Source: Aureococcus anophagefferens
Taxonomy: Eukaryota > Sar > Pelagophyceae > Pelagomonadales > Pelagomonadaceae
NCBI RefSeq assembly: GCF_000186865.1
Contig: NW_008705568.1
Location: 459,513-523,512, forward strand
Reading direction: 5' to 3'
DNA length: 64,000 nt
Shown here piece by piece: positions 577 to 47,436 of this stretch. The notes below the pieces were generated by a model, which was not told the origin of the DNA, searched no databases, and saw only the letters and a list, made by a program, of their open reading frames with translations. The position numbers and the translations under genes are program-made. Position 1 is the first letter of the stretch. Each line of letters starts with the position of its first letter.

Positions 577-3500
577 CTAGCCGTCGTCGCCCGTGGCGGC
601 CATGATGGCGTTGATGTAGTCGAGGATGATGCCGGCCATGTCCGCGGCCTGGCTCGTGGACAGCTTGAGCTCGAAGGTCGTCTCGTCGGCCAGGTTCCAG
701 ATGAAGAGGGAGAAGATGGACGAGGAGCCGCCCCAGCGGCAGACGTCGGCGTAGCCGAAGTGGTGGAGGACGTCGTAGGTCTCCGAGTCGAGGATGTACA
801 TGCCGCCGTGGCCGAACGCGACGGACACGTCGCCCGGGAGCTCCGCGACGATGGGCGGCTCGTCCTTGGCGACGACGCGGTGGCAGTGGAAGAAGGATGC
901 GCCGTAGAGGGGGTAGGCGGCGCAGGTCTTGACGAATTTCTGCTGGAGGTCCTCGATGAGCGCCTGCTGCGCGTCCTCGTCGCCCTCGGCGTCCGCGACG
1001 CCGAGCGGCGTCCGGAGCGCGACGAGCTTCCCGGCGACGCCGTCGATGGCTTCGCGGAACTTGGGCGGCACGAAGTCCAGGAGCGCCGGGTCCTCCATGG
1101 CGTCCAAATCGCCGGCGCAGCCGCTAAAGTCGTCGACCATGGCCGCGTAGAGCGAGATCGCCGCGAGCTCGAGCGCGGCGGGCTCCGATTCGGGGAAGAT
1201 CTTGCCCTCGTTGATGACCTCGTCCTCGGCCTGGAGGTAGACGAGGCGGTTGAACATGGCGTCGTCGCTGGGCCCGTTCTGCTGGGGCAGGAAGATCTTG
1301 CGCTTGTAGACGAACTTGAAGTGGCGCTTCTGCCGCGCCTTGAGCACGATGACGTCGCCCATGAAGTCCTTGTCCTGGCAGGGCTTGGGCGTGCGCTCCA
1401 GGTCCGCGTAGGGCTTGTGGCCGTCGGGGTCGTCGACGCCCTCGTCGCGGGGCAAATCATAAACGAAGATGCCGAACGTCGCCGCGCGCTCGTCCGTGAG
1501 CTCGAGGAACTGCGCGCAGATCTCCGCGACCTTGCCGCAGTTGAGGTCCGGCGTCACGGGCAGGTCCTCCGTGAGGACGACGTGGTCCACGAGGGAGATC
1601 GTCGCCAGGATCGGCGGCCGCTCCGTGTACGCGGCGATCTCGTCGACGGACGGCGCGAAGCCCGACGCGCCGGCCTCGAGCATGCCCTCGAGCGTGCGCA
1701 GGCAGTACTTGGCGTAGTTGCGGATGGCGCCCCGCTTCTCCTTCTGCACCATCAAAAAGTTGATGACGTAGTTCTCGAGCTCCGCCGTCGGCGGGAACCT
1801 GCGCGGAAATCGACCGCCGGTTCGGGACGTCCCGACCAAACGTTGACGTGCTCTCGCTCGGTCACATCGAAGTCGTTTCGGCCGACTTTTAGACGAATCG
1901 ACTGCTCTCGTCGAGTTCTCGAAGCAGAGCCGATGAGCTCGCGTCGAACCTGTCGAATACGCGCACATTGAAGTCGGGTTGAAGCTTCGACGTCCGCGCG
2001 GGCGGGAACGTCGCGACGACCATGCACATCATCTGCCAGCCGCGCGCGATGGAGTCGGGCTGCGGGTTCGAGCTCAGCTGCTTCATGATCTGCATGTAGA
2101 TCTCGTTGCGGATGCCGTTCTTCATGTCGAGCCCCCGCTTCAAAATGTCCTCCGCGAGCGTCGCGGGGAACGCGAGCGGCTTGTCCTTCATGTAGCCCAG
2201 GAGGCTCTTGTGGATGTTCTTGGCCATCTTGTCCGTCGCCGCGTCGCAGGAGAGCAGCGACTTGGGGATGACCTGGGTCGTGTGCTTGAGCATGTTCTCC
2301 TTGGTCTTGCGCTTGTTGAGGATGGACCCGCGCGCGAAGTCGTCGGGCGTCCGCAGGTCCGCGAACTTCTGGAACGCGTACTTCTGGTTCGACGCGCGCT
2401 TCTGGCGGTCGGCCCGCAGCTCGGCGAGCTCGTCGGCGGACTTGTCCGTGACGGGGCCGGCGTCGTCGCCGTCCTCGACGTCCTTCATCTGCTTCGCGCG
2501 GAAGTCCTCGTCGAGCTTCTTGAGCTTCTTCTTGACCTGCGCGGGGGCGATTCAACGTCGCTGCAACGCGAGCGTTCCGCGCGCGCGCGTTCCAGAACAG
2601 GCAGCCGCGCTTCGGGGGCGCTCCGAGGGATGATCGCTCGTCGAAACATCGGCCGAAACAAACGGCCGAGCGAGGCGCCTCTGACGTCGCGCGCGTCGCG
2701 CGCGCGTCCCGCGCCGCGCGTCGCGTCGTCCATGACCGTGAGCTGGAGCTCGAGGTCCTCGGCGGCGTCGAGCGCGGCTTTTAGGGTTTTGATCTGCTTG
2801 GACTGGAGGGCCTCGGCGAGCTGGGCCTGGACCTCGATCTGCTTCTTCGCGTGTTCGAGGACGGCGGTCGCGCGCGCGGCGGGCCCCGAGAGCCCCGCGG
2901 CCGCCGCGGTGCCGACGGCGGACTCGAGGCCGGGCAGGTCCGCCGGTACGATGCCCGACGGCGACGCCGTCTTGACCTTGAGCGTCTCGACGGCCGCGGC
3001 GAGCACGCGCGCGGAGTCGGCCATCGCCGATATCTTCTCGCGCTTGCCCGTCGCCGTCGCGATGTCGTCCTGGGACAGGCCCAGGGAGATGGCGTTCTCC
3101 AGCGCGTCGTTCAGCGCCTTCTCGAGGCCCACGGGGTCGTCGGCGCTCTTCGCGTCGAAGTCGCCGTCGGACATGTGGATCACCGCGTTCGTCTTCTCGA
3201 CGAGATTCTGGCGCTCGACGGCGATCTTCGCCTTGTTGTAGGCGTCGTTGCTCATGCCCCGGGCCCTCGCGGCCTCGTAGGCCGCCTTGAGCGCGCCGGC
3301 GTCCTTGGCCTCGAGGGCCTGCGTCATGGCCTTACTCAGCTTCTCCTCCTCGATGAGGTCCTTGAGGATCGCCGTGCCCTCGGACACGTCGAGCCCGAGG
3401 CCGCGCCCCTTGGACACGGCGCGGCTCAACGCGTTGGCGTTGGCGGCGTTGCGCTGGGCCTTGATGTCGGCGACGGCCGACGCGAGCACGGAGCCCATGT

Positions 3501-6500
3501 TCGCGGCCTCGTGCCTGCGTGGACATCAACCGCCGGTTTCGGGGGTCCCCGCCAAACTTCAGAGCTCTCTATCTCGATCACATCGACGTCGATTCGGCTG
3601 ATTCTTGGACGGATCGATGGCTCTCATCGGGTTCTCGAAGCACGGCCGAAGAGACCGGTCCGAACCGTTCGATTACATTGAAGTCGGGTCGAAGATTCGA
3701 GTTCCGCGCGGCCTCGCGCTTCTTCTTCGCGGCCTCGTTCGCGGCCTTGAACGCGGAGCCGCGGTAGCCCTTCTCGGCGCCCGCGGCGATGAGGGCCTCG
3801 AGGTCGGCGTCGGACGTCGCCGCGCCGAGCTTGGCCACGAAGGCCGCCTCCTCCTTGAGGCGCTCGATCTTCTTCAGGGCCGCGTTGAGCTCCGCGCCGC
3901 CCTTCTTCAGGCCTGGGCAGGACAAGGGTGATTCAAGTTCTCTTCAACATGAGTGTGCCGCGCGCGCGCGTTCCGGAAAAAGCATCCATGCGTCGAGATC
4001 GTTCCGAGAGATGATCGCTCGTCCAAAAATCAGCCAAAACGAGTGGAAAACGGCCGAGATCGGAGCCTTTGAAGTTGGGCATGTCGCTCTCTTTTCCCGC
4101 CCTGCTTCAGGCCCGCCTTGGCCGCCTCGGCCATCGCGGCCTCGACCTCGGCGACGGTCTCGACCTTGTCGAGCGTCGCCATGAGCTTCTCGGCGGCGGC
4201 GCCCTTGGCGCCGAGGTCCTTCATGGCCTTTTTGGCCGCGTCGAGCTCCGGGCCCTCGACGCCGAGGCTCGACGCGTCGCCGAGCGCCGCGGTCAGCGCG
4301 GACACGTCCTGGGCCGCCGCGGCCTTGGAGAGGGCGGCCTTGCAGGCCTCCATCTTCTCGAGGATGCCCAGCGTCGCGTTGGCCTCGGAGAAGGGCGCCT
4401 TGTAGTGCTCCGGCGACACCGCGGCCGCGGCGGCGAGCGCGGCCTTGAGCGGCGCCAGGTCGCGCGCGGCCGTCGCGGCCTTGATCGCCTCGACGAGCCC
4501 CAGCTCCGTCTCGATGGTCTTGACGAGGTCCGCGCCCTGCTTGACCTCGGGCACGTCGTCGCCGAGGCCGACGCCGGCCGCGGCCTTGACGGCGGACCGC
4601 AGCGTGTCGAGGTCGCGGCGGTCGCACGCGGACAGCACCGCGGCTTTCGCGTCGGCCTCCTTCTGGAGCTGGGCCTGGAGCGTCTGGGCGGCGCCGAGGC
4701 AGCTCGGCTCGAAGCCCATCTCGGCGCACTTGTTGAGGAAGGCGCTGAGCTGGCCGAGAGCCTTCGACGCGACCGCGTCCTCGAGCTGCTTCGTGACCTC
4801 GTCCTCCTCCGCCTGCGCCGAATTCGAATCTTCAACCCGACGTCGATGTGCGCGTATGCGACGGGTTCGACGCAATCTCTTTGGCTGTGCTTCGAGCACT
4901 CGATGAGAGCGATCGATTCGTCCCAAAATCAGCCGAATCGACTTCGATGTGACCGAGCGAGAGAAGTCTCAAGTTTGGTCGGGACCACCCAAACCAGCGG
5001 TTCGGCACAGTCCTCCGCGAGCCGGTGGCTCAGGGCCTGGGCCTGGGCGACGACCTCGTTGTCGTCGGGGATGCCAAAGTCGGCGCACTCGCCGAGCTTC
5101 GCGTCGAGCGCGCTCCGGTCGCGCGCGGCGACGCAGTCCTTGAGCGCGGCGATCAGCGCCTCCTCCTGCTTGATCTTGCTCAGCGCCTCGCGCGCAGCGC
5201 CGAGCTCCGGCGGCGCGAAGTCCATCTTCTCCGCGGACTCGATGGCCTGGACGAGCAGCGACTTGTCGTGCTTCTCGATGGCCTTGGACAGGAAGGCGAC
5301 GACGCGCTTTTCTTCCTGGATGCGGACGAGGAGCGCGGACGCGTCTTTCACGATTTGCAGGTGCTTGCCGTTGCCCGGGAGCTCCGACGTGTTGTTCAGC
5401 GCCTCCTCGAGGGCCTCCTCCGTGCGCTTGGCGATGGCGCCCTTTAATAGATCTAATTCCTTCTTCCAGGTCTTCATCTTCACCTTCATGACGTAGCGCC
5501 GCGCGTACTTTTGGCAGATGACGGCCGTCTCCAGGAGCGAGTCCTCGCGCGCGACCTCGAGGTCCACGGACTGGGGCGCCTTCATGAAGATTTTCGTCGT
5601 GCCCTTGGCCCACATGCCCGCCTTGAGCACGCCCTTCTCCTCGAGGCCCTTGAGCAGCTCGTCGACGGACTTCGTCCCGCGGACGATCGTGCCGTAGCGC
5701 TTCGCGAAGTCCTTGTAGTCCTTGCGCAGCGGGTAGCCGAGCTTGCGGATGCGGCAGACCTCCAAGAGACCGGAGTAGCGCATCTGCTCGAGCATCATGG
5801 CCGACGTGAAGTTGCCGCCGATCTTTTCCTTGTTCGGCTTCATGCACCGCACAAAGTGGGGCTCCGTCGTCTGCAGCGTCGCGATGAGCTCCGCGAGCGA
5901 CTTCTTGAAGGCGGAGCAGAGCGTCGCGGACTTCTTCTTCGAGCCGCCCTTGACGGGCGGCGGCGGGAGGCACGTCTTGACGAGGTCGGACGTCGTCGTG
6001 TGGAGCATGGTCACGACGTCGGGGTGGAGCTGGTCCTTGTTCTTCTCCAGGAAGTCCGTCGTGTCGTACATGACCATGCCCGCGTAGTGGACGATGCCGA
6101 AGGCGACGCGGTTGTACTCCTTGGGGCAGTTCTTCGGCCCCGCCTTCTCGAAGTTCTTGTGCGGCCCGTGCTTCGACACGAGCTTCGACAATAAGCTCGC
6201 GTCGGAGCCGCGCGGCACGGAGATCTCCTCGTCGATCATGGCCAGCACGCCCTGGCGGGGCTTCTCGAGGAGCTCCAGCGTCGGGCCGTTGTCCTCGAAG
6301 TCGCTCCGGGGCACGGAGACGCCCTCGGCCTCGTACCTGTGTGGATTCCAACCACTGGTTTGGGACGTCCCCACCAAACTTCAGAACTCTCTATCTCGGT
6401 CAAATCGACGTCGATTCGGCTGATCTTTGGACGAATCGATTGCTCTCGTCGAGTTCTCGAAGAACGGCAGAAAGCCTCGCGACTAAACCGTCGAATACGG

Positions 6501-8350
6501 TCACATTGAAGTCGGGTTGAAGATTTGATTTCCACACAGCCTCATACGCGGCCTCCTCCTGCGCGAAGATGAAGTCGTTGAAGAAGTACTGGAGCTTCTC
6601 GTTGCAGAGGTTGATGCAGAGCTGCTCGAGGGAGTTGTGGTGGAACGACTCGAAGCCGAAGATGTCCAAAATGGCCGCGAAGTTCGCGAAATCCTGGGTC
6701 TTGTCCATGGACGCGTTGCATTTCGCGATCGTCCACGTGAACAAGCCCTGGTAGATGGCCTTGGCCATGGAGTCGCGCGTCGCCGACGACTGCGCCGGCG
6801 TGTAGGAGACGATGATGACGCTCTTGTTGCCCACGTTCTTGGACGTCAGCGCCTTCTCGAGCTCGCCCGCGTCGAGGCCGAGCATGGCCGCGACGACGGC
6901 GAGCGTCTCCGGGTTCGCGACCCTCGACCCGTCCTCCTCCATGGCCTTGGCGACCTTCTCGAAGTGGACGTTGGACGCGTGGAGGCACGCGGCGAAGATG
7001 GCGAAGACCGTCTGCTTCTCCGCGTCCGAGTACTGCAACGTGCCGTAGGACCGGATCATGTCCTCGTACTCGGCCTCGTCGTTGAAGCCCTCGGCCTCCG
7101 TGACGCCGCTCTGGTCCAGGTAGTGGTAGTCCTGGGGGTCCGCGAGCTGGAGCGCGGCCCTCAGCTTCGGCTCCTTCTTGCAGCCCGCGATGAGCATGTA
7201 GAAGACGTGGTAGTTCCGCTCGCCCTCGGCCTGGAACGTCACGCGCGACTTCTCGAGCAGGTAGTCGATGATGGACGCGCCGACGACGCCGCCCTGCGTG
7301 TCGAACTTGACGGTGATGAGCTTGCCGAAGCGGCTCGAGTTGTTGTTGCGGAGCGTCTTCGCGTTGCCCTGCGACTCGAGGATGGGGTTCGTCTGGAGGA
7401 CCTGCTCCTCGATGCCCGCCTCGCCCTCGACCTTGGCCTTGCCCGAGAGGCGCGCGCTGACGTCGCTGACGAACTGGAGCACGAGCTTCGTGTTCACGGT
7501 CTTGCCCGCGCCGGACTCGCCCGAGATGACGACGCTCTGGTTCTTCCGCTCCGCCATCATCGCCTCGAAGGTGTCGATGCCTGGGCGGGAAAAGAGAGAT
7601 TCAACGTCGCTTCAACGTGAGTGTTCCGCGCGCGCGCGTTCCGGAAAAAGCATCCACGCTTCGAGAGCGCTCCGAGAGATGATCGCTCGTCCAAAAATCA
7701 GCCAAAACGAGAGGAAACCGGCCGAGCTAGGAGCCTTTGAAGTTGGGAATGTCGCACTCTTTTCCCGCCCTGGTCGATGCCGATGCCGAAGATGTGGGGC
7801 GCCTTGCCCCGGGACCCGTCGCGGTAGAGCTCCATCTGCTCCGGCGTGTAGAGCGGCAGCTTCTTGAAGGGGTTGATCGCGACGAGGATCGCGCTGCGAC
7901 GGGCGGCGGTCGCGCGCGCGCGTCGCGCGGCGGAGGGGACGCGGCGCGACGCGCGCGACGTTGCTGTAGATCTTGTCCTGCTTGAAGCGGCCGCGGAGGA
8001 TGTGGAGCAGCGAGTTCTCGTTGAGGTCGTTGACCTGCGCCGCGGCGCCTCGCGCGCGCGCGCGGCCGGGACCGCGCCGGGCGCCGGGCGCCGCGCCATG
8101 ATGAGGTTGTCGATGCCGGAGTCGAGGCACTGCGCGTCGCAGACGTCGATCTTCGCCGTGTCCGTCAGGTTGTGCGTCTCGCCGTCGTCGCTCTGGCACT
8201 TGGTGGGCTCGCCGGGCTTGAACGCCGTGAGCACCTGCGGCGGCGCGTCCGGGCAGCGGCGGGCGAGAGCGCGGCACGCGCCTTGGCGGGCACGAAAATG
8301 TCCGTCTCATGGGGGAGCCAGATGTACGACCCCGGGGCCCGGGTCGCCAT
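577..8350 (-). CDS. Unconventional myosin with MyTH4-FERM tail, 2060 aa, 11 exons, 7 introners
   Basis: Actin-based motor with a membrane- or microtubule-binding tail. Exons on the minus strand: 8350-8282, 8234-8097, 8034-7955, 7893-7781, 7580-6548, 6336-5019, 4812-4113, 3912-3720, 3514-2725, 2536-2010, 1798-577. They total 6183 nt, exactly 2060 codons plus stop, and every junction phase agrees. The head shows the P-loop GESGAGKT (about residues 154-161), switch I NNNSSRFGK and switch II DIFGFESF. An IQ-like AVICQKYARRYV follows. The middle is an Ala/Lys/Glu-rich helical region with repeated blocks. The MyTH4 domain contains LLGYMKDKPL and WQMMCMVVATFPP. The end resembles the FERM C-lobe (GMYILDSETYDVL, SIFSLFIWNL). 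Seven introns are introners; the three near the start are short GC-rich introns (47, 62, 61 nt) with GC at the 5' site. The 2725/2536 junction is the least certain. The start is the first ATG giving the usual myosin N-terminus (MATRAPGSYIWLPHE). Confidence 0.9.
1799..2001 (-). mobile_element. Introner, family B copy 1 (myosin intron 10)
   Basis: A 203-bp element flanked by the exact 8-bp duplication gcgggaac at 1791-1798 and 2002-2009. In gene sense the intron is 2009-1799, starting GTTCCCGC (5' GT taken from the duplication) and ending GCGCAG supplied by the element. Removal joins ...VVAT to FPPTAELENY and restores the MyTH4 domain. The internal block ATTGAAGTCGGGTTGAAG (plus strand) is shared with the other B copies. 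Confidence 0.93.
2537..2724 (-). mobile_element. Introner, family A copy 1 (degenerate; myosin intron 9)
   Basis: Shares with other A copies the plus-strand run GATTCAACGTCGCTGCAACG near 2548, the GTTCCGCGCGCGCGCGTTCC core and GATGATCGCTCGTC near 2631. The end nearer the upstream exon is eroded into GC-rich sequence and no 8-bp duplication survives. A GC-AG intron at 2724-2537 keeps frame (TVMDD joined to VKKKLKK), but the exact 5' site is uncertain. It looks like the oldest family A copy here. Confidence 0.75.
3515..3711 (-). mobile_element. Introner, family B copy 2 (myosin intron 8)
   Basis: A 197-bp element with flanks cctcgtgc (3507-3514) and cctcgcgc (3712-3719), a 7/8 match, so the target duplication has drifted by one base. 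In gene sense the intron starts GCGCGAGG and ends CACGCAG, a GC-AG intron. Splicing gives AAKKKHEAANMG in frame. Confidence 0.9.
3913..4104 (-). mobile_element. Introner, family A copy 2 (myosin intron 7)
   Basis: A 192-bp element with the exact duplication cttcaggc at 3905-3912 and 4105-4112. TIRs are ctgggcaggacaag on the left and ctcttttcccgccctg on the right. In gene sense the intron starts GCCTGAAG and ends GCCCAG (GC-AG, phase 1). Splicing joins EAAKAGL to KKGGAELNAA. Confidence 0.93.
4813..5010 (+). mobile_element. Introner, family B copy 3, inserted in reverse (myosin intron 6)
   Basis: A 198-bp element with the exact duplication tcctccgc at 4805-4812 and 5011-5018. Its sequence is the reverse complement of the other B copies relative to the gene: ttcaacccgac lies on the left and aaaccagcggttcgg on the right. 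It still ends in CAG in gene sense because both TIRs begin CTG. The GC-AG intron 5018-4813 joins SHRLAE to EDEVTKQL in frame. Confidence 0.92.
6337..6539 (-). mobile_element. Introner, family B copy 4 (myosin intron 5)
   Basis: A 203-bp element with flanks cctcgtac (6329-6336) and cctcatac (6540-6547), a 7/8 match. In gene sense the intron starts GTATGAGG and ends CACACAG (GT-AG, phase 2). Splicing gives AQEEAAYEAEGVSVPR, the expected myosin head sequence after switch II. Confidence 0.93.
7581..7772 (-). mobile_element. Introner, family A copy 3 (myosin intron 4)
   Basis: A 192-bp element with the exact duplication gtcgatgc at 7573-7580 and 7773-7780. TIRs ctgggcgggaaaagag and ctcttttcccgccctg (plus-strand ends) pair almost perfectly. 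The intron 7780-7581 starts GCATCGAC and ends CAG. Splicing gives PHIFGIGIDTFEAMMAERK just before the P-loop. Confidence 0.94.
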
Positions 8351-16891: not shown

Positions 16892-19800
16892 CTAGGGGCC
16901 GGCGAGGTCCGCGAGGGAGCCCGACGAGTCGCCGGCGGCGTCGAGGCTCGCGAGGGACGCGGCCGAGTCGCCGCGCTTCGGCGTGCAGTGGTCGAGCACG
17001 AACTGCTTCAGCGCGAGCTCCTCGGGCGAGACGGAGGCGTCGGTGCCGCCGTAGGCCACGGGGAGCTGGTCCTCGTCGACGAGCTCCCGGAGCGTGGCCT
17101 CGTAGTTGCCGCGCAGCACGGTGATCTTCTCGCGGACGTTCGGATCCAAAAGCGGCGACACGATGGACCAGATGACCCCGAAAATCGACGGCGCGTTGAT
17201 GATGATCGTGCGCCAGACGCGCTCCGGGTAGTTGCGGTTGATGGCGTTGATGGCCTTGAAGTACGCGGCCGTCGCGCCGCCGCAGTCGCCGAGGCCGATC
17301 GACTTGCAGTCGATGATCTTCAGGAAGTAGCCCTCCGGGTCCTTGGGCGCCCGGCCCACCTCGTCGACGTCGTCCAGCAGCGTCGCGTAGGTCCAGGCGG
17401 ACACGAAGTGCATGTGCGCGACGACGTCGGCCATGCCGATGCCCCGCCGCTCCATCGCTTTAAAGGCGCGGTTCGGGTTCTCGATGACCTCGTACGCGCA
17501 GAGGTGGCCCAGCTTGTCGCGCCGGTGGAAGAAGTGGGCGTGGGACGCCTTGATGACGTCGAAGTGGGGCTGGGGCGCGTACTGGACGTCCTCGGGCCGG
17601 TTCCCGTCCGCGCGCCACGCCTCCGTCTCCTTCCATCTTTTCAACGCCTGCGCCGGGTCGCCGCGGACCGCGCCCAGGAAGCGCTTCGGCACGTCCCGCG
17701 GGAGCGCGTCGGCGACCTCGTTTTCCGAAGACGCGCCCGCGTCCTCGAGGCCCGCGCGCGGCGGCTTCGACAGCTCGTCGCGCGGCGCGGGGATCTCCGC
17801 GGCGGCCGCGGCCTCCTTGAGCTTCTCCGCGCGCCGCGACGCGCTCCGCACGACGGCGGGCCGCGTCTTGGACCCGTCGCGCCAGCGCCAGTCCACCAAC
17901 CGTAAATCCAGCGTCAGCTTCCGCCCGCGCTTCCGCGCGCGCTTCGCCGCCGCGACGGCGGCGAGCGCCGCCGGCGGCACGCGCTCGCCGTCGGGCCGCG
18001 GCGCCGCCAGCGCCTCGTCCGCCGCCGCCGCCAGCGCGCTGCGCACGGAGAGCGCGGCGACGGAGAGCAAGAGGATGGCGCCCAGCGACGCCCGGAGCTG
18101 CCACGCGTTATCTTCTCCATCGTAGACCAAACGGATGCTGTCGCCCAGGAAGCAGGCCTTGGCCACGTACGCCAGGACCCCAAAGACCACGGCCCCGACG
18201 ACGTGCTCCAACGTCTGCTGGGACACGGTGCCCGGCGCGCCGCCGAGCACGGACGTCTTCAGGAACGCCGCGGGCGAGTCGACGAAGACGTCGCCGAACC
18301 CTTGGGCGACGTCCAAAGCCGTCGCGATGGCCCAGGACGCCCACTCCGGCAGCGTCGCGTCGTCGCGCGCCGCCTCGAACGCGGCTGTCGCATCGATAGC
18401 CACCAAGATGTCGAGCGTCTCGACCTTGGACTCCGCGCCGTCGTCGCGCGCCTCGCTCGCCTGTGTGGAAATCAACCGCTGGTTTGGGTGGTCCTGACCA
18501 AACTTCAGAATTCTCTCGCTCGATCAAATCGAAGTCGATTCGGCTGATTTTGGACGAATCGATTGCTCTCGTCGAGTTCTCGAAGCACAGCCGAAGAGCT
18601 TGCGTCGAAACTGTCGCATATGCGCACATTGAAGTCGGGTTGAAGATTTGAATTCCACGCAGTCGCTCGCGTCCTCCTTCTCCGCGACCTCGCACCAGAA
18701 CGCGCCCCGGGCGCCGCCGGACACGGCCGCGTGGGCGTCGCCGACGGACGCCGCCGCGCCGAGGCCCTGGGCCTGGTCCGCCGCCGCGCGGCCGACGAGG
18801 GCGACGACGTCGAGCTCGACGTCCCCGGCGTTGAGCTCGAGGGCCAACGTCGCGTCTTCGACCTCAACTTTGACGGGCTCGCACCAGCCGTAGCCGAAGC
18901 GCGGCGACCCCCGCGCGACGATGCGCGGCTCCGGCGCCGCGGCCGCGAGGGTGTCGTCAGTCATGGTTTGTGAACGGCACACCCGCGCCGCGGCCGTCGC
19001 CGTCGCGAGGACGAGGTCGTGGCCGTGGGCCTTGTCGTCGAGGCGGTGCACGGCGGCGAGCGCGCGGTCCTTGGCGCGCGCGATGGCCTTGAGCCAGCCC
19101 AGGCAGTCGCGCGCGTTGACGGCCCGGAGGCAGATGGACACGTCGTTGAGGTCGCCGATCGTGAAGCAGCGGTGGTGCAGCGGCGGCGCGAAGGACTCCG
19201 CGTCGCCGTGGCGGAGGATGGAGAGGATGTCCGTGACGTGGAGGTTGTGGAGCAGCTTGCCGCTCGCCGCCGCCGACGCCGGGTCGTCGCCCTTGACGCC
19301 CGCGGCCGCGGCCGCCGCCGCGGGGTGCGCGTTCGGCAGATCCGCCGTCGCCGCGAGCGCGGCGGCCGCGGACGGGACCGCCTTGCCGGAATTCGGCGAC
19401 GACGCCGGGTCCGACGCCTGGCGCGGCTGCGTCAGCGTGTTCAGCAGGCCCAGGGGCCCCGGCGGCGGGTCCTTCCGGCTCGCCCGCGCGGAGACGGGCT
19501 CGTCGAGCGGCTGGAAGACCAAAAGCGACAGGTGCGTCAGGATCACGTGCGTCTGGACCCAGGCGCCCGACGCGCCGTCCCTACACTCGAGGCGCCCGCG
19601 CCGCGTGACGCCGGGGAGGGACGCCGAGTCCCCGAGCGGGTAGACGGCGTTCGGCTTCCGCGACCGCTCCTTCGCGCGCTGCAGCGCGGACTCGAGCATG
19701 CCGCCGACGCCCGTCGTGGACTTGGCCGTGCGCCAGGCCGGCGGCGCCTCGCCCTCGAGCGCCAGGAAGCGCCGCGTCTCGCTCTGGAGCGACAGCGGGA

Positions 19801-23368: not shown

Positions 23369-24625
23369 ATGCGCCGCGCCTGGCCGCAGCTCCTCCGCTG
23401 CTGCGCCCTCGCCGCGGCGCTGCAATCCACCGCGCCGCCGCGGTCGCTCTACGTGCACCTGCCGTTTTGCCGGCGCCGCTGTTTTTACTGCGACTTCCCC
23501 GTCGTCGTCGCCGGCGAGGCGTCGGCGACGCGCGACCGCGCGACCGCGCGCTACGTCGACCTGCTCGAACACGAGATGGCGTCGTGGGACGCGCGCGCCG
23601 CGCCGCTCGACGCCGTCTACCTCGGCGGCGGCACGCCGTCGCTCGTGGAGCCGGCGCACATCCGGCGCCTCCTCGACGGCGTGCGCGGCGCCGTCGGCGT
23701 CGCGGAAGGCGCGGAGGTCACCATCGAGTGCGATCCGGGCACCTTCGACGCCGAAAAGCTCGCGGCCTACGTCGCCGCGGGCGTGACGCGCGTGTCCCTG
23801 GGCGTCCAGTCCTTCGACGACGGCGTCCTCGAGGCCGCGGGCCGCGCGCACCGGCGGGCCGACGCGCTCGCGGCCGTGGCGGCCGTCCGCGCCGCGGACC
23901 TGCCGCACGGCTGGAGCCTCGACCTCATCTCGGGCCTGCCCGGCCTCGACGGCGGCCTCTGGCGCGACACGCTGGCGGAGGCCCTGGCCTTCGAGCCGCC
24001 CCACGTGTCGAGCTACGACCTGCAGGTCGAGGCGGGGACCGCGTTCGGGCGATGGTACGACGACGACGGCGCGAAACCGTCCCCGGCGCGCCCCGCGCTG
24101 CCGGACGAGGCGCTGGCGGCGGACATGTACCGCGACGCGTCGCGGCTGCTGCGGGGCGCGGGCTACTGGCACTACGAGATCTCGTCCTACGCGCGGACGC
24201 CCGCGCGGAAAGCGGTCCACAACGCGCTCTACTGGCGGCCGCGCGCGTCGTGGCTCGCGCTGGGCCTCGGCGCGACGTCGTCGGCCGGCGGCGACCGCTT
24301 CACGCGACCCCGGGCCATGGCCGACTACGAGGCCTGGGTCGCCGGCGGCGCGGCCGTCGGCGAAAGCGACGAATCCGACGGCGCCGACTGGCTCCTCGAC
24401 GAGCTCCTCACGGGCCTCCGGACGTCCGACGGCGTCGACCTCGGCCGCGTCCGGGCCGAGTACGGCGCCGACGCCGAGGCCGCCGTGCGCCGCGGCGCGG
24501 CCGACGCCGTCGCGGCGAACCTCGCGACGCTCGAGGGCGACGCGCTCGCGCTCGCGGACCCCGACGGGTTCCTCTTCTCCAACTTCGCGCTGTCGTCCAT
24601 CTTCGCGGCGTTAGACGATTCCTAG
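23369..24625 (+). CDS. HemW-like radical SAM protein (coproporphyrinogen III oxidase-like)
   Basis: Radical SAM iron-sulfur protein of the HemW/HemN group; HemW proteins bind haem and are thought to be haem chaperones rather than oxidases. Single exon, 418 aa. The iron-sulfur motif C34-X3-C38-X2-C41 lies in LPFCRRRCFYCDF. Other blocks are DAVYLGGGTPSLVEP, VTIECDPGTF, RVSLGVQSFDDGVLEAAGR, WSLDLISGLPGL, HVSSYDLQVEAGT and YEISSYARTP...HNALYW, all in HemW order. The N-terminus (LRCCALAAALQS) is hydrophobic and may target an organelle. It stops at 24625, one base from the stop of the convergent HSF-domain gene. Confidence 0.86.
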   Translation: MRRAWPQLLRCCALAAALQSTAPPRSLYVHLPFCRRRCFYCDFPVVVAGEASATRDRATARYVDLLEHEMASWDARAAPLDAVYLGGGTPSLVEPAHIRRLLDGVRGAVGVAEGAEVTIECDPGTFDAEKLAAYVAAGVTRVSLGVQSFDDGVLEAAGRAHRRADALAAVAAVRAADLPHGWSLDLISGLPGLDGGLWRDTLAEALAFEPPHVSSYDLQVEAGTAFGRWYDDDGAKPSPARPALPDEALAADMYRDASRLLRGAGYWHYEISSYARTPARKAVHNALYWRPRASWLALGLGATSSAGGDRFTRPRAMADYEAWVAGGAAVGESDESDGADWLLDELLTGLRTSDGVDLGRVRAEYGADAEAAVRRGAADAVAANLATLEGDALALADPDGFLFSNFALSSIFAALDDS

Positions 24626-24626: not shown

Positions 24627-26796
24627 CTAGAGGGACAGCGTCAGGGGCGCGGCGTCCAAGTCGTCGAAGGACGCGATCATGGCGCCGAGCTGCGCCTGGA
24701 GGTCCGAGCACGCGGACCGGATGGCCCGGAGCGGGCTCTCCTCGGCCGCCGCCGGCGCGGCGGCCGCCTCCGTCCAGGGCACCTCCGTCGAGGGCTCGTC
24801 GTCCTCCGGCTCGGCCGGCGGCGGCGCATCGCGCAGAGCAAAGAACGTCGGCGGATAGAAGACGCGTGGCTCGATCTCCTTGAAAAGTTGCGCGTCCTCC
24901 TCGGCCGGCGGCGGCGCGTCGTCCTCGGCCGGCGGCGGCGCGGCGTCCTCGGCCGGCGGCGCGTCCTCCTCGGCCATCGGCGCGTCCTCCGGCTCGGCCG
25001 GCGGCGCGGCGTCCTCGGCCGGCGGCGGCGGCGCGTCCTCGGCCGGCGGCGCGGCGCCGTCCTCGGCCGGCGGCGCGTCCTCCTCGGCCATCGGCGCGTC
25101 CTCCGGCTCGGCCGGCGGCGGCGCGGCGTCCTCGGCCGGCGGCGCGTCCTCCTCCATGGGCACGCCCGCGCGCGCGTGCGGCGCGTAGCTCCGCAGCGTA
25201 GGCCGCGAGCGTCATCGCGCGGTAGGCCGCGAGCTCCGCGCCGTCGGCGGGCGCCGCGGCGCGCGGCGGCGGCGGCTTGCCGGCGATAATGGCGCGCGGC
25301 GGCGCCGCGCGCGCTTCCGCGGCGACGGCCGGCGCGGGCGCCGGGGCGCGCGCGGGCGCTTCCGCGGCGACGGCCGGCGCGGGCGCGCCCGCGGGCCCGC
25401 GCGCCGCCGCCGCGCGGCCCGCGACCGTCTCCAGGAGCTGGCGGCAGACGTCGTTGTTGAGCGCGACCTCGTAGCCGCGCTTGAGGTCCCTCGACTCGTC
25501 GAGCGCGTCGACGAGCCCGATGAAGGCGTCGACGACGTCCGAGCCCGGCGCGCTCGCGCCGTCGAGGTGCGCCTTGAGGTGCGCCTCGAGGTCCTCGCTC
25601 GTCGCGCCCGCGAGCCACTCGTGGAGCTGCGCGAGGGCCGCGCGGTCGACGGGCGCCGCGGGCGCCGCGGCCTCGACGGGCGCCGCGGCCTCGACCGCGG
25701 CCGCGGCCGCGCGCCGCGCCTGCTTCGCGGGCCGCGGCCGCTCGGCGGCCGGCGGCGCCGCGTCGACCGCCTTCGGGCGCTTCCCTTTGATGCCTTTGAT
25801 GACCTTGATGGACTGGAGCAGGCCCGGCTTGCCGCGCCGGAAGTGCTCGTGCGAGTAGGAGTACATGAGGCCCTCGACGCGCTTGAAGCCGCGGTTGTGC
25901 AGCTTGTCGTAGAAGGACTGGAATTTCCAGCGGTCGAGGCCGAAGCGCGAGGGCAGCACCTCGTCGCAGAAGCGCCCGATGTTCCGGACGACGAACGCGT
26001 CGCCGTCCTCGCTCCAGCCCACGACGTCCCCGTCGGCCACGCCGCCGTTCGAGTCGACGGCGTCGTAGAGCGCCGCCGGGAACGCCGCGCCGCCTTTCGC
26101 GTTGAAGTCGCGCGGCGCGGGCCGCGGCGCCGGCGCGGCCGGCGCCACCGCGGCCTTGGCCCGGGCGGGCAGCGGCGCCGCGGCGGCGTGCGCCTCGAGG
26201 GCGCTGCGGAGGTCCGCGATGTCGCGCGGCGCCTCGGCGGCCGGCGGCGCGGCGGCCGCCGGCGGCGGCGCGAGCTTGGCCTTGGCCTGCCGCGCGGGCC
26301 GGGGCTTCTTCGGGGGCCGCGTCGCGTAGCGCGCGAGCCGCAGCGTCTTGCCCTCCTGCGTCCCGCGGACCTCGTAGTCGACGAACTCGGAGCGGCCGAC
26401 GCCCGCGACGTCGTAGCGCTTCGGGCCCTTCTTCTTGAAGAACAGGGTCATGCTGTCGACGACGAAGCCCCCCGCGTCCTTCGTCTCCGCCTCGCCCTCG
26501 GGGACGTAGTTCTGGAACCTGCGAGGGAAATAGGTCCGCGCGCGCGCGCGCGGACCCGGAGGGGCGGCGGACGCCGCGGCGCGCCCGCCCTTGAAGATGT
26601 AGGAGGTGCCGTCCGTGGCGCTCTGCGGCTGCGGGATCATGTTGTAAACCGCCTGCAGCGCGTGCCGCGAGTCGAGATTGTGCTCCTCGAAGGCCCAGCG
26701 GCCCTGGAGGACGAAGGCGCCCTCGCCGTCGCTCTTGATGACCTCGCCGACGATGTGCGCCATGGCGACGGGCTCCGGCGCGGCCTCGCGCTTCAT
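24627..26796 (-). CDS. Heat-shock-factor-domain protein with Pro/Ala/Glu repeats (frame break)
   Basis: Probable DNA-binding transcription factor. Exon 1 (26796-26585) and exon 2 (from 26518) flank a 66-nt GC-AG intron. The N-terminal ~150 residues (HIVGEVIKSDGEGAFVLQGR, MIPQPQSATDGTSYIFKGG, SMTLFFKKKGPKRYDV) form a domain I cannot name. The HSF-type fold follows: FPAALYDAVDSNGG, DVVGWSEDGDAFVVRNIGRF, LPSRFGLDRWKFQSFYDKLH, NRGFKRV. It departs from classical HSF in the recognition helix. After an Ala-rich helical region the frame moves by one base at about 25165-25200, into a repeat of EDAPPAE and EPEDAPMAEE units, and ends LFKEIEPRVFYPPTFF...LTLSL. The exon sum is one base over a multiple of three, so an indel, error or tiny intron lies there. 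Confidence 0.7.
24890..25160 (-). repeat. Minisatellite coding for (E)EDAPPAE repeats
   Basis: Imperfect 12-18 bp units built on ggcggcgcgtcctcggcc, with a longer unit of about 80 bp (cgtcctcctcggccatcgg...) repeated at about 24965 and 25075. It is the acidic Pro/Ala tail of the HSF-domain gene. Because unit lengths are multiples of three and GC-rich, several other frames stay open here. Confidence 0.8.
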
Positions 26797-29406: not shown

Positions 29407-31526
29407 TTAGTCCGGCCTTGGCGGGCGGCTGAAGTCGTGGCGTCGCCGCAGGATCATAGAGAAGGGCGACCGCGGCGCGGCCTGGATCGCGTCCCGGTGG
29501 AGGCCCAGGCGGCCCGCGTCGCGGAACTTCGAGAGCCCGAACTCCGTCGCCGGGTAGCCGATGGGCGGCCAGCGGTCCGACTCGTCGTTCGCCCCGAAGA
29601 TGTCGTCGAAGTGGTCGTTGACGGCGTCCATGCCCTCGTCGACGACGTCCGCGGGCGGCCGCGTCCACGGGTTGTCCGAGAGGTCGAGGTCCTCGTCGCG
29701 GCAGTGGAGCTTCGCGACGGACCGCACAAGCACGGCGAACTCGTTGCCGCTCAAGTTGCACTTCTCGAGCGTCGCGAGGCGGTCGCCGAAGTCGACGGGC
29801 AGCTCCGCGAAGCCGCAGTTGGCGACGTCGAGCTCGACCAAGGACGGGCACCGGTCCGCGATCGCCGACAGCGCGTCGTCCGTGAGCCCGCCGCAGCCCC
29901 GCAGCCCGAGCACCCGCAGGCGCGGCGCGCCGGCGAGCACGTCGTCGAGGGCGTCGTCGGCGAGGGGCAGCCCCGCGGCGTCGAGCGCCTCGAGGTCCGG
30001 GCAGTGGAGCGCGGCCAACGCGCGGCCCGAGAGCCCGGCGCAGTTGGCGACGTTCAGGCGCCGAAGCCGCGTGCAGCTCGCGCCGAGGACGATCATGCCT
30101 ACCGAGCACGTCGGTCACGATTTTCATCATTTTCCCGGTCAAAAACTCGCGACAATCGTCACGGCCGCAGGGCGCTGGATCATGCCGACGTCGCTCAGGC
30201 CCGGGCAGCCGGAGACGTCGAGGTCGAGGAGGCCGTGGCACGCCGCGACGGCGGAGAGGCCGTGGTCCGTCAAACGGTCGCTCCCCGACAGGTCCAGCGC
30301 CTCGAGGGCCGCGCAGGTCGGGAGCAGGCGCGCGAGGGCCCCGTCGGCGACGTCGCTCGACGCGCAGCGCAGCGCGCGGAGGCGCTCCGGGCGTTTCAGC
30401 CGCGACAGCGCCGCGGCGGCGAGCGACGTGCCCGAGACGTCCAGCGTCTCCAGCGGCCCGCGCGAATCGACGTCCCGCAGCGCCCCGCAGTCGGAGACGT
30501 CCACGAACACCGCGTCGCCGAGCGCGGGCACCTCCGCGAGCGCGCCGCAGCCGCCGACGTCCAGCGTTTCGAGCGCCGCGAGGTCGGCGGGAACGGAGGT
30601 CAGCCGGCCGCAGCCCCGCGCGGCCAGCCGCCGCAGCCCGGGGCAGTGCGTCGCGATGAGGAAGAGGGCGACGTCGTCGAGGCCGGGGCAGCGCGACGCG
30701 TCGAGGCTCGCGAGGTCCGCCAAATGGCCTGGGCAGGACAAGAGAGATTCAATGTCGCTTCAACGTGAGTGTTCCGCGCGCGCGCGTCCCGGCAAAAGCA
30801 TCCACGCTTCGAGACCGTTCCAAGAGATGATCGCTCGTCCAAAAATCAGCCAAAACGAGTGGAAAACGGCCGAGATATGAGGCTTTGAAGTTGGGAATTT
30901 CGCTCTCTTGCCCTGCCCTGCAAATGGCGGAGCGGCGACAGATCCGCGAGCGTCGCGCAGCCCGACACGTCGAGCGCCCGGAGGTGCGCCGCGCCCGCCA
31001 GCGCCTCGACGCCGGCGAGGCGCACGCAGCCGGCGACGCTCAGCGCCGTCAGCGAGGCCAGGGGCTCGCCCGGGAGCGCGGCGACGTTCGCGGCGCGGGA
31101 CACGTCGAGCGACGTGAGCCGCGGCGCGGCCGTGTGGAGCGACGCGAGCGACCGGGACGTGAGCTGGCCCCAGTGTGCGCAGCTCAGCGTCTCGAGCCGC
31201 GGGCAGCCGCCGGCGGCGGCGAGCAGGCCGTCGACGCCGACGTCGCCGCAGCCGTCGAGCCGCAGGATCCTCAGATTCGGGCACGACGCGGCCACGACGG
31301 ACAGCAGCGCGCGCGTGAGGCTCGAGCAGTCGTCGAGGACGAGCTCGACGAGGTCGCGGCGCAGCGCCGTGACGACGTGGCCGTCGGAGACGGCCTCGCG
31401 CTCGTACCACGTCAGGGGCGACAGGTCGACGACGGCGCCGTTGGCGCGCACGACGAGGTGGCCCTTCCGCTCCCAGAGCTCGCGGTCGTGCGGCGGCCAC
31501 TGCTCGACGGAGGCCGCCGCGCCCAT
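29407..31526 (-). CDS. Leucine-rich-repeat protein (AMN1/F-box-type LRR), 610 aa
   Basis: Protein-interaction scaffold made almost wholly of Cys-containing LRRs as in F-box/AMN1 proteins. Exons 31526-30929, 30728-30186 and 30098-29407 total 1833 nt, 610 codons plus stop. Intron 1 is a family A introner; intron 2 is an 87-nt GC-AG intron with its own 8-bp duplication. The start MGAAASVEQW suggests N-myristoylation. Repeats include LVELVLDDCSSLTRALLSVV, PNLRILRLDGCGDVGVDGLL, PRLTSLDVSRAANVAALPGE, LEALDLSGSDRLTDHGLSAV and LRVLGLRGCGGLTDDALSAI. No F-box is visible at the N-terminus. The end (HFDDIFGANDESDRWPPIGY) is non-repeat. Across intron 1 the protein reads TLADLSPLRHLADLASLDAS. Confidence 0.85.
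30099..30177 (-). mobile_element. Candidate third-type introner, 79 bp (LRR gene intron 2)
   Basis: A 79-bp sequence flanked by the exact 8-bp duplication gatcatgc at 30091-30098 and 30178-30185. In gene sense the intron starts GCATGATC and ends GGTAG, and the downstream exon again begins GCATGATC, so its structure matches the proven introners. It is unrelated to families A and B. Near its two ends it carries imperfect inverted segments (GTGACGATTGTC and the complement of GAAAATCGTGAC). One copy only, so family status is inference. Confidence 0.55.
30729..30920 (-). mobile_element. Introner, family A copy 4 (LRR gene intron 1)
   Basis: A 192-bp element with the exact duplication caaatggc at 30721-30728 and 30921-30928. 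Ends are ctgggcaggacaagagag and ctctcttgccctgccctg. In gene sense the intron starts GCCATTTG and ends GCCCAG (GC-AG, phase 1), and splicing restores the LRR reading frame. Confidence 0.94.
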
Positions 31527-36399: not shown

Positions 36400-36454
36400 G
36401 CCCCGCTTCACTAACCTCCCGGCGTGGGACATCCAGATGCGCGGGGCCATGCTT

Positions 36455-39448: not shown

Positions 39449-39468
39449 GTTGAATTCAAGTTACCACA

Positions 39469-40241: not shown

Positions 40242-40607
40242 GGTCCGCAGCGGCGACCGCGCCCGCGGCGGCGACCGCAGGCCGCCCGCCTTGGCCGCGA
40301 CCATGGCTTTTCCCACGTGTCTTTTCCGCCGCTGTACCGCGACGCGCCCCGCGACACGTGTGCGCCGACGGTGCGCGGCGCTTTGTTTCCTGGGCCGCCC
40401 GGCACGTCGACGACAGAGGCTGCCACAGCCACAACGTGAAAATTCCCGCTGGGTAAACATACGTTTGTTAACGGCAAGGTTGCGGGCGCGCTTTAACCTC
40501 ACCCGCGCGATTCACATTTCGCAAGCAGGCGTCCAACGTCGTGGGGCGACGGCCGGCGCGCAACGCCGAGTCGCGCGCTCTTCGACGCGCCGCCGGCGAC
40601 GCGGACC

Positions 40608-41522: not shown

Positions 41523-41594
41523 CGAAAAAAACAACCCCCTTGCGCGTGGAACCGAGACGCGACTCCCCCCTTCCTAACACAGACCTAACACAGA

Positions 41595-44500: not shown

Positions 44501-45185
44501 CCGTCTGCGCCGCCGTGGCTTCGTCGCGGACGAGCTGGCCCTCGGCGCGGAGCGCGGCCAAGGCCTCGGCGGCCTCGGCGACGAAGGCCTTCTCCGCGGC
44601 CTCGCGCGCGGCCTCTTCCGCCGCCGCGGCCTCGGCCGCGGCCGCGCGCTCCGCCTCAACCCGCGCCGCCTCTTCCGCCGCCGCGGCCGCGCGCTCCGCC
44701 TCGGCCCGCGCCGCCTCGACCCGGGCGGCCTCCTCCGCCTGGAGCCGCCTCGTCTCCGCCGCCGCGGCCTCGCCCTCGGCGGCGAGCGCGCGCATCTCGG
44801 CTTCGACTTGCTCCAGCGCCGCCGCCGCCTTGGCGCGCGCTTCGGCCTCGCGCGTGGCGGCCTCGTCGCCGAGCTCGACCTCGACCTCGGCGACGACGGC
44901 CTCGGTCTCCGTCGCCGGCGGCGCGGCCGCGTCTTCGCGGCGCGACGGGAGCCGGCGGCGCAGCTTTCGCAGGAGGTTCGTTGTTCGCGGGAATGCCTCG
45001 ACGAGGCGGTCCTTGCGCAGGAGGTTCGTCGTGCGCGGGAATGCCTCGGCGAACCGGTCCTTGATGCCCGCGTCGAGGACGACGATGCCGCGACGCGCGC
45101 TGCGATGCTGCACCGGCGCCGCGCGCGGCGGCACGAAGGCCGTCGCGAGGACGGCGACGGCAAAGACCGAGAGCGCCTTTCGCAT
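41595..45185 (-). CDS. Long Ala/Glu coiled-coil protein with signal peptide (possible plastid protein), 1196 aa
   Basis: The N-terminus MRKALSVFAVAVLATAFVPP is a signal peptide ending in ATAF, close to the ASAF plastid-import motif, followed by an Arg-rich stretch. A 16-residue duplication follows at about 42-75 (FAEAFPRTTNLLRK, then LVEAFPRTTNLLRK). Residues 110-900 are a continuous Ala/Glu/Arg coiled coil with AERLEAERVEAE units. The C-terminal third has an Ala/Gly-rich segment (AGRGLGAALSGAAGALGAAF) and a compact end, FHQTMVANELVAAAAALRDV. No enzymatic domain is seen. Plastid location is an inference from ATAF alone; a secreted or vacuolar structural protein is equally possible. Because of the repeats several other frames are also open across 42.3-45.3 kb. 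Confidence 0.72.
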   Translation of the reverse strand: MRKALSVFAVAVLATAFVPPRAAPVQHRSARRGIVVLDAGIKDRFAEAFPRTTNLLRKDRLVEAFPRTTNLLRKLRRRLPSRREDAAAPPATETEAVVAEVEVELGDEAATREAEARAKAAAALEQVEAEMRALAAEGEAAAAETRRLQAEEAARVEAARAEAERAAAAAEEAARVEAERAAAAEAAAAEEAAREAAEKAFVAEAAEALAALRAEGQLVRDEATAAQTEREAAWRATQVERAAAEEAAAADEAARAAADEAAAADEAARVEAAESAARAAAEQAAAEAAEAAEAAEAAEAAEAEAAAARAAQAEREAALAAAQLERAALADAEAREAAEAASALVGAARARAGAARVGAARVEAERLEAERVEAAESAAREATEAAELLAEAKRAALEAQAALRDARGGDARVGAARVEAERLEAKRVEAEAAAAAKAEEAEAERLEAERVEAERVEAEAAAKAERVEAERVEAERIEAERIEAKRLEAERVEAEAAAKAERVEAERVEAERIEAKRLEAERVEAEAAAKAEAERLEAEAKAESERLEAERVEAEAAAKAEAERLEAEAKAEAERLEARRVEAEAAAKAEAERLEAEAKAAAEAKAEAERLEAAAAAEAKAAAEAKAAEEVKAEEARATAERRRAEELSAAKSEAEAREAAEDIARIKAEQEQAAALAAEQAQEAVEIARRAKELAARRAEAEADEAKREEEEAEAARLAEAERLEAEAAAAAKAAAQAKVAEAEAAAKAETERLEAERVETERLEAERVEAEAAAKAEAERVEAERVEAERVEAAAKVAAEPTATGSFLDAVKGAVSELRAYTPEDGERATRERLDAAKAEAQADEQPEEEDAETEAEAEARAAKEAAEAEEREKRAAAAAAARAEADARAAADADALAERQRADAAARAEEARARAAAAEATPWDGTVKREEGDRVLQVYLADDAAEEDDRDAELVKRAQAALERSEALERSRALLEEVRDDAAAPPRDDTPPPRQPTTPNPLTRALASATAKATDGVGAAASNAVGSATAAAGDAVGSGAAAAGRGLGAALSGAAGALGAAFAGAAKALVEEAVVKPVKSGAAAAGDAAAAAATDVAGSALRTVASLPQRALDAYSYEDPDVPDLTKPPPAAVAAATDALGPAAVAALQTLCMDRILVLVDEKVIKRRDVEKFHQTMVANELVAAAAALRDVK
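42780..44420 (-). repeat. Minisatellite coding for AERLEAERVEAE-type coiled coil
   Basis: Imperfect 15-18 bp units (plus strand gcctcgacgcgctcggcttc-like) run through the coiled-coil gene. A longer higher-order unit of about 75-120 bp (ggcctcggccttcgcggccg...) repeats at about 43420-43620 and 43690-43800. Short gcggcctcg units at 44280-44340 form a pure run. Confidence 0.85.
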
Positions 45186-45275
45186 GACTGGCCTAGCGAG
45201 CTACAACAGGCACTCAGCTCGATCCCATGCCGAGCCAAAACTTCAAAGCTGACGTTGAACCATCGGTGCTGGCCG

Positions 45276-47436
45276 ATGCGCGCCATGGCCGCTGCGAGGG
45301 CAGCCTCATGCGCGTCGCTCCTGCTGACCCTCTGGGCCAGCGCCCAACACAACCCACCGCCGCCGAACTACGAGCTCGCGCGGGACCACGACAACCTCAA
45401 GCCGCTGCAGGAGTATTTAGAGTACCGCTGGGTCGACGTCGCCGTCGGCGGCGAGAACGTGCGGCTGCGCGTGGGCCACGGCGCGGCCCTCGACGGCCTC
45501 TACGCCGAGGCCTGCGCCGCCGTCGCGGCCGGCGACGCGCGCTGCGTCGGGGAATTACGAGACTACGTCGAGGCGGAGCTCCGGCGGGACCCGACGTTCT
45601 ACGGCGCCGCGACGGCCGCCATCGCGACCGACCGATCCGAGGGCTTCGCGCCCCGCGACGCCTACGAGGCCCGCGTCGAGATCGTGTCGCCGGCCCAGGG
45701 CGCGCGGACGGCGGCGCGGAGCGACACGCTCGCGTTCACCTGGCGGCTCGCCGGCGCTCCGTTCGCGCTCGGCGTCGACGGCGTCGCGTGCGTCGCCATG
45801 TACGAGGCTTACAAAACCCAACCCCTCAGCCACCGCTGTTTCGACACATTGGAAGACAGCGTCGACGGCTACCAGCGGCTGAGCGTCTTCAACGCGGCGC
45901 CCGGCGAGTACGCCCTGGTCGCGCAGCTCCGGGGAATTCGCAACGCGGACGCGCGCGGCCCGCTCGCGCTCCGCCGCGCGGTGCTCGTCGCGACGGGGCC
46001 CGCGCTCGACGCCGTCCCGCGGGACCGGCTCACGGCGGAGACCCTCGGGCGCTACTACGAGAACGTCACCCGCGCGCCGTGGGTATCCGCGGCGCTCGCG
46101 GTCGCGCCTTCCCGGGGCGCGACCGTCGCGCCGGAACGGCTCAGCGGCGACCTCGACGTGCTCTTCCGCTACGACGCGCGCCTCGCGAGCTTAGCGGCGC
46201 GCGACCTCGGCCTGGCGTCGGCCCGGGACCTCGCGGCCTGCGTCCGCGTGGGCACGGCGGAGGAGAACGACGTCGGCCACCTCGCCGGCTGCGTTTCTTT
46301 ATCCCCGCACGCGGACGACCCGGCGTCGCACGAGGCGTCCGCGCTGCTCCGCGTCGGCGCGCTGCTCGCGCAGCCGCTCCTCGTCGACGCGCTGACCAAG
46401 GTGCGGTCCGGCGGCGGCGCCGGGGACGGCGCGCTCGCGCTGACGGCGCACGCGGAGGCGCGCGCGGGGCCGCCGCCAGGGCAGCAAAAGGGTGCGAAAT
46501 TCCCAACTTCAAAGGCTCATATCTCGGCCGTTTTCCACTCGTTTCGGCTGATTTTTGGACGAGCGATCATCTCTCGGAACGGTCTCGAAGCGTGGGCGCT
46601 TTTTCCGGAACGCGCGCGCGCGGAACACTCACGTTGAAGCGACGTTGCATCACTCTTTTGCTGCCCAGGCCGCCGCGCGCCGCGTCCGCGACGGCGACGA
46701 CGCTCGCGGCCGTCGGCGGCGGGCGGCACCGGACGCGCCGAGCGGCTTCGCGGACCTCGACGCGCTCCGTTCGGCCGTGCGCAGCTTCGAGACCCACATC
46801 GGCGGCAGTTTCGAGAAGCCGCGGAAGCAGCGCGCGCTCCGCGCCGCCGTCGAGGACGCCGCGCGTCGGCGCGCGCCCGCGCGGCCGCTCTACTGCGAGG
46901 TCGGCTTCAACGCGGGCTACTCGGCGTCGGCGGCGCTGAGCGCCGGCGCGGACGTTTTAGCGCTGGACGTGGCGACCATCGGCGCGGTCCACGCGGGCGT
47001 CGACTTCCTGCGCCGCGCGTTCCCGGGGCGGACGGTGGAGCTCCTCGCGGGCGAGAGCTGCCGCAACCTCGAGCGGGGCGCGGCCCTGTCGCCGACGTGG
47101 GCCGGCGGCCGGCAATGCGACGTCGTGTTCGTCGACGGCGACCACTTTTTTGGGCCCGCGGACTGCGACCTCCGGCTGCTGAGTCGCTTCTCGCGCGCGG
47201 GCGCGGCCGTCTTCGCGGACGACGTTCGATTCGACTGCGAGGAGAACGCCCACGCGGCGCTCTGCGGCGGCCCGCTCCGCGCCTGGAACGGCACGCTGCG
47301 CGACGGCGTCATCCGGGAAGCGGCCTGCGACGACGAGGGCTTCTGCGCGGGCTTCTACGTCCGCGCGGACTTCGCCGAGCCCGAGGCGGGGTCCTACCGC
47401 GTCTCCGGGCTGCTCGCCGCCGGCGGTCTAGCGTAG
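45276..47436 (+). CDS. Secreted protein with N-terminal unknown region and C-terminal SAM-dependent methyltransferase-like domain
   Basis: Exon 1 (45276 to about 46468) starts with a signal peptide (MRAMAAARAASCASLLLTLWASAQ) and continues NPPPPNYELARDHDNL, an Ig/FN3-like segment (RVEIVSPAQGARTAARSDTL, FTWRLAGAPFALGVDG) and VLVATGPALD. The later exon (46669-47436) holds a class I methyltransferase fold of the Methyltransf_24 type: LYCEVGFNAGYSASAALSAG (SAM motif), VLALDVATIGAVHAGVDF, CDVVFVDGDHFFGPADCDLR and FSRAGAAVFADDVRFDCEEN. Between them lies a family A introner. Exact removal of the element and one target copy puts the second part out of frame by one, so the splice site or sequence is not settled. 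They could also be two genes. The end is 5 bp from the next stop. Confidence 0.62.
46477..46668 (+). mobile_element. Introner, family A copy 5 (methyltransferase-domain gene)
   Basis: A 192-bp element with the exact duplication gccgccgc at 46469-46476 and 46669-46676, in a plus-strand gene. It starts cagggcagcaaaagggtgcg and ends cttttgctgcccag, so in gene sense it has the same orientation as all other A copies. The expected GC-AG intron 46469-46668 leaves the two coding parts in different frames. A GC at 46464 would restore frame. Confidence 0.9.

Follow-up and report, generated by a model that had tools for sequence, protein, structure and literature searches.

Short introners of two size classes in a window of Aureococcus DNA and their genome-wide donor rule

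In the stretch of DNA analysed here (64,000 nt, hereafter the window), four genes together carry ten copies of two short elements bounded by terminal inverted repeats (TIRs); a repeat search recovered all ten, in the two families and four genes described by a first-pass annotation of the window. There is little room for doubt that these elements are introners of the alga Aureococcus anophagefferens, i.e. short non-autonomous TIR DNA transposons that make introns. The evidence lies in their anatomy, in the agreement between predicted splice strand and coding strand, in the restoration of reading frames and in a donor rule that holds throughout the genome. The two classes are named here after their size: short elements (192 bp, formerly family A) and long elements (197-203 bp, formerly family B).

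Limits and duplications were set by scoring 8-bp flank matches together with end symmetry (Table 1). Duplications were exact in 7 copies and matched at 7/8 positions in 2 others (3507/3712 and 6329/6540), as had been claimed for nine of the ten. The decayed short copy at ~2537-2728 displayed a tentative 6/8 duplication, GTCATGGA / GTCAAGAA, with exactly 192 bases in between. Likeness among the repeats of the window was far beyond chance: inverted pairs were 80-94% complementary across 80-195 bases, and some direct pairs were only ~60% alike in ungapped comparison. Read on the gene strand, the upstream duplicate started with GT in two and with GC in seven of the nine clear copies, and the elements ended with AG, giving predicted introns of 200 nt for the short family and of 205-211 nt for the long one.

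Table 1. Introner copies in the window, with their 8-bp flanking duplications and the introns predicted from them
Element	Position	Strand	Duplications (match)	Predicted intron	Gene and remarks
Long introner	1799-2001	-	1791-1798, 2002-2009 (exact)	1799-2009, GT...AG, 211 nt	Myosin gene
Decayed short introner	~2537-2728	-	2529-2536, 2729-2736 (tentative, 6/8)	2537-2736, GT...AG, 200 nt	Myosin gene
Long introner	3515-3711	-	3507-3514, 3712-3719 (7/8)	3515-3719, GC...AG, 205 nt	Myosin gene
Short introner	3913-4104	-	3905-3912, 4105-4112 (exact)	3913-4112, GC...AG, 200 nt	Myosin gene
Long introner	4813-5010	-	4805-4812, 5011-5018 (exact)	4813-5018, GC...AG, 206 nt	Myosin gene; opposite in orientation to the four other long copies, yet fit for splicing on the gene strand
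Long introner	6337-6539	-	6329-6336, 6540-6547 (7/8)	6337-6547, GT...AG, 211 nt	Myosin gene
Short introner	7581-7772	-	7573-7580, 7773-7780 (exact)	7581-7780, GC...AG, 200 nt	Myosin gene
Long introner	18461-18662	-	18453-18460, 18663-18670 (exact)	18461-18670, GC...AG, 210 nt	CRAL-TRIO gene
Short introner	30729-30920	-	30721-30728, 30921-30928 (exact)	30729-30928, GC...AG, 200 nt	- strand gene, translation leucine-rich by eye
Short introner	46477-46668	+	46469-46476, 46669-46676 (exact)		+ strand gene; frame not restored by splicing at the duplication

Removal of one duplicate together with the element kept the reading frame in 9/10 copies, seven of which reside in one myosin gene. These nine comprise eight of the nine clear copies, the very proportion for which protein restoration had been proposed, plus the decayed tenth copy, whose donor is uncertain. 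The myosin gene, located on the - strand, codes for a myosin motor domain, MyTH4 and FERM/PTB; without its seven elements, 2098 codons run free of stops and join the motor domain, the tail and MyTH4-FERM. The start of this stretch, upstream of the motor, is doubtful, and a further intron probably lies there. Frame was likewise kept by the copy at 18461 in the CRAL-TRIO gene and by the one at 30729. Codon scores assigned the same frame to both flanks at the eight clear junctions other than 46469-46668 (the coding score of the upstream flank of 7581-7780 was near zero), and when the element was retained every frame ran into a stop in 7/9 copies tested.

The identity of the host was approached through a 418-aa protein encoded at 23369-24622, which matched coproporphyrinogen oxidase from A. 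anophagefferens (P0122). In this one gene, five substitutions were counted once a gapped stretch and the divergent C-terminus had been set aside; these two regions suggest a faulty gene model or a frameshift in the record. The Chrysophaeum taylorii protein was 57% identical. On this comparison, together with near-identical public proteins, the host is A. anophagefferens or a very close strain, so that the match would be to the same introner system and not only to the same class.

Copies were abundant in the searched genome (49.05 Mb, 86 contigs). Exact matches to a 22-base core of short elements numbered 1333, and those to a 24-base core of long elements 455, both sets being spread over many contigs, which disposes of the concern, raised beforehand, that no further copies might exist. 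DNA searches returned 2043 (short) and 1737 (long) candidate places, 40 of them being scored in each. Copies parsed from the 60 best shared, on average, 93% pairwise identity in the short family (27 copies, one of them misparsed) and 97% in the long family (26 copies). The grouping of seven copies within one gene could bring to mind an assembly artefact, or introns multiplied along with duplicated genes or exons, instead of mobile elements. Yet, the dispersal of exact cores over 1333 and 455 places, and the fact that parsed copies differed in 8-bp duplication and context (the features to which flank comparison was limited), render such an origin next to inconceivable.

A further regularity concerned the two bases following the acceptor end. 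The 14-base acceptor end CTTTTCCTGCCCAG was found at 406 places, where it was followed by GY (G and then T or C) in 400 cases, by GA in 3 and by a base other than G in 3; reversed control patterns gave 0 or 1 match, and the background of GY is ~20% of positions. Two of the three non-G cases (L061 and L063) proved to be the 5' extremities of copies that carry CTG on either side, and in each of the four other exceptions the matched strand was coding. L064, L065 and L066 (G000:C18:112268, C38:272246 and C66:17109), three short-family copies located in coding regions, displayed exact 8-bp duplications starting with GAGC in place of GY and may, for that reason, represent GA-AG introns. Donors in 52 parsed copies were GT in 31 and GC in 21, and the only fixed target bases in these copies were duplication positions 1-2. 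A palindromic target preference as the cause of GY was rejected on the latter ground.

Coding strands were called by a codon model derived from the window genes, which assigned 57/57 held-out myosin pieces correctly. The predicted splice strand coincided with the coding strand in 107/108 assessable copies from four samples, between which overlap is possible. The first sample consisted of the 60 best copies, 52 of which were parsed (L001, L010, L018, L024, L036, L041, L042 and L048 were unparsed and uncounted); strands agreed in 52/52, and 47 of the 52 allowed only one splice strand. The three other samples, of 20 places each, were drawn from lists of 400, 1333 and 455 places, in each case within the first 100 entries, and so covered contigs 1-4 only. 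Agreement was 20/20 for the acceptor end followed by GY (20 places, 21 copies, one scoring near zero), 16/16 for the short core (15 by script, one by eye) and 19/20 for the long core (17 by script, two by eye, one ambiguous), after omission of L083 from the acceptor-end sample and of L118, L121, L125 and L126 from the short-core sample, the fetched regions being too short. Three copies missed by the parser (L120, L136 and L144) displayed, by eye, 8-bp duplications and GY...AG on the strand with coding flanks; a fourth (L143) was damaged and its coding context ambiguous. In a strict coding test over 608 bases, 42/52 introner sites passed versus 111/264 window pieces; over 480 bases, the corresponding figures were 130/265 for window pieces and 11/20 for evenly placed genome pieces.

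The two families differed in the way their ends were organized, with extremities of the form CTGTGTGGAATTCAA or C[A/T]GGGCAGGAAAAG. Long elements mostly carried CTG at both ends, hence an AG on either strand, which makes them usable either way round; their orientations within genes were indeed divided into 15 and 11 of 26 copies. In short elements, GCCCAG occupied the acceptor end in 26/26 copies and CAGGGC the other end in 21/26. Their interior occurred in both directions among 21 acceptor-end copies and in one direction among 26 copies picked by likeness to a window copy. Consensus sequences of both families had a common 55-bp core with 80% identity, on account of which the families are probably not independent. 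The earlier division into two families thus calls for a qualification. A review credits Huff et al. with the report of A. anophagefferens introners inserted in both orientations (PMC10228655).

These features also bear on a possible copying of introns via RNA, i.e. reverse splicing, a route that has been suggested for certain introners of Micromonas and of fungi. Confinement to the sense strand of transcribed sequence would suit such a process, and was used by Verhelst et al. in 2013 to argue for a link with transcription or splicing (PMC3879977). Each copy, however, is flanked by a duplicate of the 8 bp of its own target, and the long family is found in both orientations relative to the gene, which argues for DNA insertion with a staggered cut. 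Moreover, parsed copies neither lacked duplications nor carried along the 8 bp of an earlier site. Reverse splicing is accordingly considered very improbable.

For the introners described here, we infer both transposition and splicing in RNA, which would proceed as follows. A transposase supplied elsewhere would insert the elements by an 8-bp staggered cut, duplicating 8 bp of exon. Where the coding strand of the duplicated exon has G[T/C] as its first bases, the duplicate upstream of the element would become the 5' splice site, and the element's own end (...CAG) would provide the 3' splice site. Removal of the duplicate with the element (200 up to 211 nt) would then bring back the original message. 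Long elements would be able to serve in either orientation, and short ones would have their acceptor at one end. The introner mechanism invoked by the first-pass annotation is in line with the anatomy, the duplications, the co-opted GT/GC donor, the AG of the element and the restored frames.

Whether these same elements land at random, the genic, GY and strand patterns reflecting only survivorship in exons, is a different matter. Cut-and-paste DNA transposons have TIRs and 8-bp duplications of this kind, and the donor GY does not belong to a palindromic target motif, so that selection for splicing must explain it. Yet, for coding fractions of 0.9 to 0.55, random landing would place bases other than GY after 43-72% of the acceptor ends of short elements. 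Observed were 6/406 ends (4 if L061 and L063 are left out), i.e. about 1%, and these four were themselves in coding sequence. As far as matches to the exact end can tell, non-coding copies are therefore missing, and random insertion combined with exon selection alone does not easily give their near-absence. We consider random landing possible, although doubtful. The absence from non-coding DNA could be due to a choice of target tied to transcription or to the chromatin of exons, to very strong constraint on non-coding DNA, or to repeated excision that ends once an exon traps the copy. Essentially none of the most similar copies, which are presumably young, lay in non-coding DNA, where splicing would not remove them. 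It may thus be that insertion itself is confined to transcribed coding sequence, e.g. through a link with transcription or exon chromatin, and that a single lost or trans-acting transposase, as the common core could suggest, moves both families; this combined proposal is tentative and rather unlikely as it stands.

Several observations weigh against the assignment to introners or against single predicted junctions. Firstly, two public proteins, P0001 (a Logan protein, whose frame shifts three residues later) and P0244 (a JGI protein of 790 aa from a contig of 2449 bases, 99.9% identity over residues 184-962), run across the 6337-6547 site and are joined there at the codon expected. This speaks for the predicted junction, but the joins could reflect an allele with an empty site rather than a spliced message. 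Judged by eye, P0244 and P0243 moreover continue into the element at 4813, and would thus derive either from partly spliced RNA or from genomic DNA in which the 6337 site is empty. Secondly, coding frames upstream and downstream of 46469-46668 were off by one base. The stretch is rich in GC dinucleotides, and the discrepancy may stem from an indel in the assembly or from displacement of the GC donor. Thirdly, two relatives had 4-5 extra residues at the junction of the decayed copy (2537-2736); its donor may consequently lie elsewhere, e.g. at a GC located 12 bases further in (by eye). Finally, no transposase with matching ends was found by end patterns or by searches for hAT and MULE domains.

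The search for an autonomous partner relied on patterns that would miss one sharing more of the element ends or less of the TIR. TIRs without the element's own interior gave 3 matches genome-wide (short family, 1; long family, 2), and the subterminal part of the short family without its interior gave 10. Nine of these loci (the 3 TIR matches and 6/10 subterminal ones) were compared to the consensus: all resembled variant copies, and none had a transposon-sized interior. The hAT dimer domain (PF05699) gave no match, its positive control likewise matching 0/14 genomes, and the MULE domain (PF10551) gave none either, with a positive control that matched 3/14 genomes. The hAT superfamily is characterized by 8-bp duplications and CAGGG-type ends. 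The short family fits this signature (8 bp, CAGGGC/CTGGGC ends), whereas the CTGTGTGG end of the long family does not fit the hAT end motif. Two short-family copies among these nine loci, L130 (~1515-1669) and L134 (~1596-1755), were interrupted by ~155-160 bp; neither insert matched the window or the other fetched loci at E 1e-6.

More distant proteins were compared at several of the sites. P0241 (57%) displayed no element-sized insert at the 4813, 3913, 3515 and 2537 sites, nor did P0242 (40%) at the same sites and at 1799, and both had small gaps close to 3913, 3515 and 2537. Insertion after divergence would account for this, as would an origin of these proteins from transcripts. By eye, P0243 and P0244 imply a 4813-5010 copy without the short deletion found near its end in the window, and the element therefore seems to vary within the species.

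Other repeats were recorded in the window. A pair of 85-bp direct repeats (51594-51678 and 55667-55751), 95% identical and 4 kb apart, lies outside the introners. An array of 21-24-base units is located within a long open reading frame (24866-25186), and short CGTGCCCGGG-type repeats occupy a very G+C-rich stretch (57254-57462).

Introners are a leading explanation for mass intron gain, and the window, with seven of them in a single myosin gene, represents a clear case. The donor rule (400/406) and the scarcity of non-coding copies put figures on an old puzzle, namely whether introners seek genes or selection leaves only the genic copies.

Introners were reportedly first interpreted as DNA transposons by Huff, Zilberman and Roy in 2016, in two species that included Aureococcus anophagefferens, one splice site being said to come from the element and the other from the duplicated target; insertion between nucleosomes is also reported for these introners. 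The window elements belong to the same species or to a very close strain, and resemble these introners in their direct repeats of constant length, their TIRs, introns of ~200-211 nt and use of both orientations; the donor is provided by the duplication and the acceptor by the element here, as is reported for the published ones. Two further papers give a length of ~210 bp for A. anophagefferens introners (PMC9481584) and 8-bp target site duplications for an introner of Aureococcus sp. (PMC9860276). Introner family 4 of Aureococcus sp. TARA_AOS_82_MAG_00129, as presented by Gozashti et al. (2022, PMC9860276), is alike in genus, 8-bp duplication and DNA transposon signature. Yet, both of its splice sites lie within the element, leaving +12 nt in the message, whereas the donor in the window comes from the duplication and the message would be unchanged. 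In Micromonas CCMP1545, 3117/3171 complete copies of D-IE1 were intronic and mostly in sense orientation, and 46% used GC donors, according to van Baren et al. (2016, PMC4815162), compared with 21/52 parsed copies here. Micromonas is an unrelated alga, and its likeness to the window rests on intronic placement, sense orientation and GC donors. A link between introners and transcription was suggested as early as 2013 (PMC3879977). The system is thus already known in this species, as is its use of both orientations; confinement to genes is not new for introners either, and what this study adds is quantitative.

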